21,616 nucleotides of DNA from a virus. Below, one piece after another: positions 18,004 to 21,015 of the stretch. Each line of letters opens with the position of its first letter. Position 1 is the first letter of the stretch. Under the pieces are notes generated by a model. The model was given only the letters and a program-made list of their open reading frames with translations. It had not been told where the DNA came from and searched no databases. The translations under genes and the position numbers were made by a program. The stretch lies in IMG/VR virus record IMGVR_UViG_3300027896_000259, positions 1 to 21,616 of that record. One strand, written 5' to 3'.

Positions 18004-18012
18004 TAGATGTTT

Positions 18013-18020
18013 TATCTTTG
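18013..18020 (+). promoter_or_regulatory. Promoter of the nuclease gene, nearly leaderless
   Basis: TATCTTTG is a perfect TAnnTTTG -7 box. The ATG at 18025 begins four bases after the box, close to the expected transcription start, so the mRNA would have little or no leader. CTTGG at 17984-17988 is a poor -33 candidate; a repeat copy occupies the spacer. Confidence 0.65.
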
Positions 18021-18024
18021 TGCT

Positions 18025-18651
18025 ATGACAGCAACTATAAAAAAGATATTTAAAACTTTGTTTGGGCATCCTGTAGTAGATAGAAAGCCTATTGTGGGAT
18101 CTAAGGTAGTAACTGATGCAAGAGGCAGAAAATGGCCAATAAATCAAAGTGAGATAGATGAGTACTTGAAATATCTGATACAGGAGAACCTGATCGGGAA
18201 TCCTAAAGAAGTAAGATCAGAAAAGAAAGATAGCTCACCGGTAGTCTCTAAGGAGAATGAAGCTTGTAGTATACCTAATTGGTTCTCGGCACCTATTAGT
18301 TCATTACATACTCCTTCACAGGCTGAGATAAAGATAATAGAGCAGTTAATAAGATATCCTATTAAATGGTATAGTGAGGTAAGCTTTGAAGGGTTTAAAA
18401 CAAATAATGGTGGTTTCTACCGGTTTGATTTTTATATACCTTCTCTTGATCTTATAATAGAATATGATGGAGAGAGATATCATAATACAGAAGAAGCTAT
18501 TGCAAGAGATAAGATAAAGACAGAGTTTTGCACGACCTATGGTATCAAGTTAGTTCGATATAATAAACAACATTATTATCATCTTGATACTCAGATAGCT
18601 GGTTTATTAAAAAAGTATGGTATCTATAAAATGATAGATACGCATAATTAA
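18025..18651 (+). CDS. PD-(D/E)XK endonuclease of DUF559/Vsr-like type
   Basis: A 208-residue protein. The C-terminal half has the restriction-type nuclease core: PSQAEIKIIEQL (Glu101 in helix one), FYRFDFYIP (Asp135) and LIIEYDGERYH (Glu146-x-Asp148). It continues with EAIARDKIKTEFCTTYGIKLVRYN. This matches the DUF559/very-short-patch fold, which also occurs in stand-alone phage homing endonucleases. The N-terminal half has a short basic helix and a TDARGRKWPI motif (residues 30-39) and may bind DNA. The start ATG at 18025 was chosen because the promoter -7 box overlaps the alternative start at 18007. It is divergent from the late operon and convergent with the metallopeptidase gene, one base away. 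Substrate is unknown: homing, host-DNA breakdown or branch cleavage are all possible. Confidence 0.75.
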   Translation: MTATIKKIFKTLFGHPVVDRKPIVGSKVVTDARGRKWPINQSEIDEYLKYLIQENLIGNPKEVRSEKKDSSPVVSKENEACSIPNWFSAPISSLHTPSQAEIKIIEQLIRYPIKWYSEVSFEGFKTNNGGFYRFDFYIPSLDLIIEYDGERYHNTEEAIARDKIKTEFCTTYGIKLVRYNKQHYYHLDTQIAGLLKKYGIYKMIDTHN

Positions 18652-20319: not shown

Positions 20320-20365
20320 ACACCTTTCCCCATACTACCTACTACCGGTAACACAAATAAAATAT

Positions 20366-20410: not shown

Positions 20411-20429
20411 TATATTTCTATTATAGAAA
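20411..20429 (+). promoter_or_regulatory. Possible promoter with overlapping inverted repeat
   Basis: TATATTTC (20411-20418) is one base off the TAnnTTTG box. It overlaps the inverted repeat TTTCTA-TTA-TAGAAA (20415-20429). This would be a -7 box with an operator over it, driving the plus-strand gene at 20491/20521. A 5-bp stem CCACC (20470-20474)/GGTGG (20486-20490) follows directly before the first possible ATG. Confidence 0.35.
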
Positions 20430-20520: not shown

Positions 20521-20757
20521 ATGTTATCATTAAATGCGTTCAAAGCACAGTTAGGAGTACAAAAATTAGAATTTCTGAAGTCTCAAAGGACAGGTCAGCA
20601 ATTCTGTGAGGTTGACGGAGAGAAGATATTTATCTCCAAGAAAGCTAACCTCAAGGAGCCACTGTTCGTCATCTGTAATGACGGTAAGGTTGTTGCTGAC
20701 CTTAAAGGCACATGGTGGATCTGTAACAGCAGTGTAGATGCAGGTGACATCCTGTAA
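20521..20757 (+). CDS. Small plus-strand protein, unknown (probable early gene)
   Basis: A 78-residue protein (MLSLNAFKAQLGVQKLEFLK...) with a helical start and a beta-rich second half (EKIFISKKANLKEPLFVICN, GTWWICNSSVDAGDIL). I recognise no family. The alternative start at 20491 adds ten residues and lies on a GGTGG stem. The ATG at 20521 has an A/T-rich leader like other genes here, and the two choices are about equally likely. It is followed within two bases by a strong terminator, so it forms a one-gene transcript, often a sign of a highly expressed early or DNA-binding protein. Function is not inferred. Confidence 0.6.
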   Translation: MLSLNAFKAQLGVQKLEFLKSQRTGQQFCEVDGEKIFISKKANLKEPLFVICNDGKVVADLKGTWWICNSSVDAGDIL

Positions 20758-20758
20758 T

Positions 20759-20782
20759 AAAGGGGGGAGCAATCCCCCTTTT
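20759..20782 (+). terminator. Rho-independent terminator
   Basis: AAAGGGGG (20759-20766) pairs with CCCCCTTT (20774-20781) around a short loop, and T residues follow. The A-rich 5' arm makes it work on the minus strand as well. It closes the small plus-strand gene directly after its stop. Confidence 0.8.
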
Positions 20783-20820
20783 ATTGTTATTCTATTATAG
20801 TAAAACCTTTTGAATTGTTA

Positions 20821-20861
20821 TACTACCGGTAGTAGGTAATACATAATACTACTGGTAGTAT
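20821..20861. repeat. Pair of palindromes built on CTACCGGTAG
   Basis: TACTACCGGTAGTA (20821-20834) is a perfect 14-bp palindrome. ATACTACTGGTAGTAT (20846-20861) is a second copy with one central mismatch. Their centres are 26 bp apart, about two and a half DNA turns. They lie between a terminator and the structured element at 20879, and look like a double operator. ACCTTTTG at about 20803-20810 is a possible weak -7 box just upstream. Confidence 0.6.
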
Positions 20862-20878
20862 ACTCTAATGCATCATAA

Positions 20879-20978
20879 CCTGTTTCCCAAGGACAGGCAG
20901 TTGTAATACAGGGTGAATAGTGCTAAAGGTGGGAACCTTTACTCTATTCTTTACGAAATGAGAACCGTATTACAACTG
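20879..20978 (+). ncRNA. Structured RNA element with stacked hairpins
   Basis: Hairpin A is CCTGT (20879-20883)/ACAGG (20893-20897). It abuts without a gap helix B, CAGTTGTAATAC (20898-20909)/GTATTACAACTG (20967-20978), a perfect 12-bp stem. Inside B are helix C GAATAG (20915-20920)/CTATTC (20944-20949) and, within it, helix D TAAAGGT (20924-20930)/ACCTTTA (20935-20941) with a GGGA tetraloop. The segment 20950-20966 (TTTACGAAATGAGAACC) remains single-stranded. No reading frame of note runs through it. It could be a stand-alone RNA or the 5' leader of the gene at 21050. It matches no riboswitch or ribozyme that I can recall; hammerhead core bases are absent. Strand is uncertain. Confidence 0.5.
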
Positions 20979-20992
20979 AATGCAGAGGGGTA

Positions 20993-21015
20993 TATTATTA
21001 CCTTTTATAATAATA
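20993..21015 (+). other. A/T-rich inverted repeat before the 59-residue gene
   Basis: TATTATTA (20993-21000) and TAATAATA (21008-21015) form an 8-bp stem around CCTTTTA. TACCTTTT within it is one base off a -7 box, so this may be a promoter/operator for the gene at 21050 or a weak transcript hairpin. Confidence 0.35.

Follow-up and report, generated by a model that had tools for sequence, protein, structure and literature searches.

A new family of pseudoknotted RNAs with probably exchanged inserts in a lineage of crAss-like phages

What kind of element gives rise to the dense base pairing seen at 20879-20978 of an environmental virus fragment, and what might it do for the phage that carries it? 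The window, which is the whole stretch of 21,616 nucleotides (21.6 kb) analysed here, has protein matches to the PHROG terminase, portal and major head families, and its TerL is related to those of Crassvirales, Cellulophaga phage phi17:2 and Leptolyngbya phage Lbo-JY46. An HNH homing endonuclease gene lies at 18007-18651 (+) inside the late arm. The minimum free energy of 20879-20978 (+) is -35.3 kcal/mol, whereas shuffles average -20.3 (z = -5.1) and 0/200 of them are as stable; the minus strand of the same segment has a z of -4.4. The folding reproduces the parts named in the preliminary description, namely a hairpin (20879-20897, plus strand) that abuts, with zero unpaired bases between them, a perfect 12-bp stem (20898-20909 with 20967-20978), as well as nested stems under a GGGA tetraloop and about 15-17 nt of single-stranded sequence. 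Its contention that so much pairing exceeds chance is borne out both by the shuffles and by homologues with compensatory changes, and the existence of an RNA fold can be regarded as virtually certain.

The structure placed at 20879-20978 is real, but those boundaries are too narrow, because P1, P0 and a pseudoknot fall beyond or straddle them. The whole element at 20858-20995 (+), about 138 nt, folds at -50.7 kcal/mol (z = -6.3), and again 0/200 shuffles are as stable. P0, P1, the pseudoknot, the exchangeable interior of the 12-bp stem and an extended form with three sockets were all missed in the first reading. The features of the element in the window, where the P0 helix is 2 nt off its usual register, are as follows.

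20858-20863 (+): P0 5' strand, GTATAC; pairs with 20990-20995 (P0 pairing across loci; window fold)
20869-20873 (+): P1 5' strand, TGCAT; TGCAY/RTGCA covaries, 37/37 paired in A1
20874-20878 (+): P1-P2 junction, CATAA; CA invariant in A1
20879-20883 (+): P2 5' strand, CCTGT; five of five P2 pairs covary
20884-20892 (+): P2 loop, TTCCCAAGG; insertion point of two socket helices (A, B) in the extended form elsewhere
20886-20888 (+): pseudoknot 5' strand, CCC, in the P2 loop (covariation)
20893-20897 (+): P2 3' strand, ACAGG (covariation)
20898-20909 (+): P3 5' strand, CAGTTGTAATAC, the socket stem (fold; covariation; divergent P3 stems elsewhere)
20910-20966 (+): variable insert, or cassette, made of the GGGA-capped hairpin and a single-stranded stretch; unrelated in other phages
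20967-20978 (+): P3 3' strand, GTATTACAACTG (fold; covariation)
20980-20984 (+): P1 3' strand, ATGCA (covariation)
20987-20989 (+): pseudoknot 3' strand, GGG; CCC/GGG, CAC/GUG and CCA/UGG across loci
20990-20995 (+): P0 3' strand, GTATAT (P0 pairing across loci; window fold)

The pattern of the 12-bp stem alone has matches in three IMG/VR contigs, two of which are copies of one phage locus in which the arrangement is kept and the interior differs. Two relaxed patterns returned ten stretches and then at least 120 in IMG/VR, and inspection recognised at least 89 canonical and at least about 40 variant copies among the matches listed; in total, the IMG/VR pattern scans yielded over 80 homologous loci. 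Because part of P3 and the 3' strand of P1 were prescribed in the search patterns, these regions look more conserved in sequence than they are; P0, P2 and the pseudoknot were left free in the second relaxed pattern. According to a covariance model built from 37 sequences, every one of 20 large carrier records contains 1-2 copies, and further divergent copies occur in the loci. Searches of cultured phages in INPHARED with the compact or the extended consensus gave nothing beyond chance, model R1 gave chance-level matches only in Leptolyngbya phage Lbo-JY46, Cellulophaga phi17:2, crAss002 and cr55_1, and plasmids gave zero matches. Bacterial genomes contain four pattern matches, and real copies are present in only one of them, a metagenome-assembled contig binned as Neisseriaceae that carries two copies (L134:5707-6129) and is probably a mis-binned phage fragment.

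The canonical element reads P0, UAA, P1 (UGCAY), CAuaa and the P2 hairpin with loop UUCCCAAGG, followed by P3 (CARUUGUAAUA), the insert, P3', A, P1' (RUGCA), GA, GGG and P0'. Standard pairs are formed in 98.8% of the pair cells of the 37 sequences, and double-sided changes occupy 87 cells compared with 19.6 in shuffles, a value reached in 0/500 of them; when the partner is shifted by one column, pairing is about 30%. Covariation in homologues, which the preliminary description had named beforehand as a check, is present in every helix and in the pseudoknot, where CCC in the P2 loop and GGG in the 3' tail co-change to CAC/GUG and CCA/UGG. P0, the next helix outward, keeps its pairing in register while its sequence is almost free, giving a mean run of 3.61 pairs versus 1.57, with a maximum of 2.16 in 2000 between-locus shuffles. 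The excess of G·U over A·C cells in the helices taken together (80 vs 20) marks the plus strand as the probable RNA strand. The element is a member of a structured-RNA family on the plus strand in a crAss-like phage lineage, and its constant part, or chassis, comprises P0 and P1 together with the three-way junction where P1, P2 and P3 meet, which is locked by the pseudoknot of the P2 loop with the 3' tail.

Not all copies have this form. Some carry a short tetraloop on P2, and the pseudoknot partner is absent from them. In the extended form, P2 is made of GUGG/CCAC (also GUAG/CUAC and GCAG/CUGC) and encloses AUAUAAAGACUU...AUGUGAAA, between which socket A sits on a CUUAG/CUAAG-like stem; CUGAUUA/UAAUCAG with socket B, then CUCCCAAGG and then the P2 3' strand follow. 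The extended form thus has three sockets, the helices of A and B lying inside the P2 loop. It is found in 4/20 large carriers and in 25 pattern-matched IMG/VR contigs, and stands in tandem with compact copies in four loci (L113, L043, L108 and L063).

The GGGA-capped nested stems singled out by the preliminary description are real but belong to the variable insert, and the conserved part lies elsewhere. P3 acts as a socket for inserts of 17-209 nt, which can be unrelated between phages whose flanks are 85-97% identical. For copy 3 of L105 and L009, the flanks are 97% and 84% identical and the scaffold 100%, and the insert is at 51%, which equals background; likewise, flanks and scaffold are conserved and inserts unrelated in L025/L091 and L020/L039. 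Conversely, inserts that are 94-98% identical occur in phages without flank similarity. The insert common to L060 and L072 is 97% identical over 110 nt between dissimilar flanks, and further inserts are common without their flanks to L042/L092 (98%), L021/L113 (95%), L018/L027 (96%) and L025/L126 (97%). The flank cut-off of 60% is the noise level for this AT-rich DNA, and only the top rows were used. Inserts also recur in other stems (L118) and in another socket (A of L027 with C of L054). One recombinant (L122) and one insert-less copy (L038) were found, and these single cases could be chimeric; assembly chimerism is unlikely as a general cause of insert sharing because identities are 94-98% rather than 100% and the metagenomes differ. 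Judged from sequence comparison, inserts have very probably been exchanged, being replaced wholesale between close relatives and common to distant ones.

The inserts are probably structured RNA domains, with weaker support than the chassis, since their changes keep base pairs and include a few double-sided changes (two in the L032/L043 insert and one in L108B/L153B, with almost zero broken pairs). Folding energies are only mildly above background (mean z of -0.83 vs -0.44 in control segments), so that it is mainly the covariation seen in a few pairs of inserts that speaks for a structured domain. Tandem T-arm-like hairpins give 4 matches in 175 inserts against 0.7 expected, a weak signal because two of the four matches are the same insert.

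As to the carriers, the TerL family of the window (phrog_6681) is present in 16/18 records tested, including 16/16 of those of 88-128 kb, and by these protein matches the carriers classify as crAss-like phages. Each phage has 1-3 copies of the element, on the strand opposite to the terminase (late) arm and divergent from TerL; conserved genes upstream of it are on the other strand, on the late side, and those downstream are on its own strand. Across 60 loci, the first ORFs downstream represent about 50 families and begin 7-436 nt away, and the suggestion that the element is the leader of the 59-residue gene is not upheld. Because the downstream ORF families differ between loci, a riboswitch or gene-specific leader is excluded. 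A terminator stands directly 3' of the element in only 3/77 cases, and since terminators so rarely follow directly, a discrete RNA would need processing. Given this context, the element is either released as an RNA by processing of a longer transcript or works in cis on the transcript that contains it. Upstream of the element, the window has a terminator-like hairpin at 20754-20787, and such a hairpin is found upstream in a few other loci as well. The motif TACTACCGGTA occurs in the window at 20340-20350, 20821-20831 and 20847-20857; two copies form a 16-nt dyad (20819-20862) just 5' of the RNA and the third lies in the divergent intergenic region, and they are possibly operator or promoter sites. 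A repeat, TTCTATTATAG(A/T)AA, at 20416-20429 and 20790-20803, lies about 75 nt 5' of a unit in each case (an 88-aa ORF and the RNA) and is a possible early phage promoter.

Known RNA classes do not account for the element. The preliminary description saw no match to hammerhead or riboswitch cores, and the Rfam covariance-model search that it proposed likewise places nothing over the element: Rfam 15 gives chance-level matches over it for the whole window, for the region at E up to 10, for 14 carrier loci and, at E up to 1, for the extended form of L113. A Hatchet ribozyme well over the gathering score is present on a carrier contig (L108:3088-3239, minus strand). No tRNA or tmRNA was detected in the window, and the carrier loci scanned are mostly without a nearby tRNA; a tmRNA gene followed by tRNA-Thr is encoded by a 116-kb carrier phage (L063:7798-8271, plus strand). 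In retron msr-msd RNA, an outer helix surrounds two hairpins, one short and one long and variable, and the outer helix of the element encloses a comparable pair. The carriers differ in having no reverse transcriptase (PF00078 in 0/20 carrier records, with three control genomes positive), and a retron was rejected on this ground. Also rejected were a Y RNA or YrlA (Ro60, or TROVE, PF05731 in 0/20 carriers) and a guide RNA of TnpB or Cas12f (PF07282 in 0/20 carriers). No precedent was found in the open-access papers covered by the search, and to our knowledge no such RNA is known in this group of environmental crAss-like phages. The RNA family is real, and its absence from Rfam 15, the lack of an open-access precedent and its unusual cassette behaviour make it new.

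A display model, in which a fixed chassis shows interchangeable RNA domains as an active surface toward host factors, is favoured because it accounts for a chassis that stays constant, inserts that are exchanged and an element that does not depend on its neighbouring genes, although its probability is put somewhat short of even. In this model, a noncoding RNA would arise early in infection, either cut from a longer transcript or folding out of it. Its chassis would supply stability and a common handle, and the inserts may bind or titrate putative factors that vary from one host to the next, such as proteins of RNA-acting defence or of RNA processing; this analysis found no host target or binding protein of the element. 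Insert swapping could take place by recombination in the conserved sequences flanking both sides. A more ambitious picture, and a more doubtful one, is an RNA platform with a fixed pseudoknotted chassis, one to three sockets and cassettes that spread independently, probably driven by an arms race with the host. Variable inserts are exchanged between conserved structured boundaries in integron gene cassettes with attC hairpins, and the inserts of the element are similarly swapped; in contrast to integrons, they are short gene-free RNA domains and their boundaries form a pseudoknotted RNA. If true, the cassette platform would be an RNA counterpart of gene-cassette exchange. The family adds a well-supported RNA with a covarying pseudoknot to environmental crAss-like phages, and is unusual in that a constant RNA frame has fixed sockets at which whole RNA domains are exchanged. 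Should the inserts bind host factors, the family would amount to a collection of naturally evolved RNA inhibitors or decoys, each insert leading to a host target.

The cis alternative left by the genomic context may take the form of an antiterminator like HK022 put, which, transcribed near the start of the early arm, would modify RNA polymerase and let it ignore downstream terminators, the insert being a tolerated stem extension. put RNAs are about 70 nt long, have two adjacent stem-loops and lie downstream of early promoters in phage early regions, independent of the downstream gene (PMC9378689), and the element resembles them in its adjacent stem-loops and its placement: its 1-3 copies are found on the arm that diverges from the late genes, whatever gene comes next, with a terminator-like hairpin just 5' of it in the window and a few loci. 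However, it differs in its three-way junction with a pseudoknot, its outer helices and its hypervariable insert; the travel of inserts, their kept pairing, their occurrence in other sockets and the three sockets of the extended form would be left unexplained, and the next ORF begins anywhere between 7 and 436 nt away. Such an antiterminator is rather unlikely. A general processing or stability element of long early transcripts, such as an RNase site or a degradation block, would fit a position between same-strand genes with a terminator rarely directly after, but the pseudoknotted core and exchanged inserts exceed what it needs and each phage has only 1-3 copies, making it quite improbable.

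Slightly less probable than the put-like reading is an architectural, ornate RNA that acts by self-assembly, its inserts being peripheral domains under loose selection. ROOL and GOLLD are phage-encoded RNAs of unknown function that form homo-oligomeric cages and are often near tRNAs (PMC12286853). Like them, the element is an elaborate, pseudoknotted phage RNA with a constant core and a variable periphery, and tRNAs are sometimes near it. Unlike them, its compact form is only about 110-200 nt, it has so far been found in one crAss-like lineage, and it has fixed sockets with horizontally exchanged inserts; the ROOL and GOLLD models of Rfam have zero matches in the window, 14 carrier loci and the extended form of L113, and tRNAs are absent near most loci scanned. 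DNA that folds in single-stranded form, be it an origin, a site of packaging or recombination or a short mobile element, would agree with inverted repeats bounding exchanged inserts and with the recombinant and insert-less copies. Against such a DNA-level element stand the excess of G·U over A·C on one strand, the fixed orientation relative to genes and a P0 that pairs by structure with its sequence free, and it is very improbable. The display model remains the preferred reading.

A second conserved RNA-like module, GGGUAGUAUCCUAUAGGUCAGGCAGAAAUCCUGAUUACAA, occurs in several carriers, at L083:5024-5092, at L057:10043-10081 and upstream of L103:11420, and is sometimes immediately 5' of the element. 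A recurrent motif, CCUAAGCAUGUGUUUAAACUGCUU, abuts the 5' side of the element in six loci (L009, L105, L069, L023, L096 and L056).
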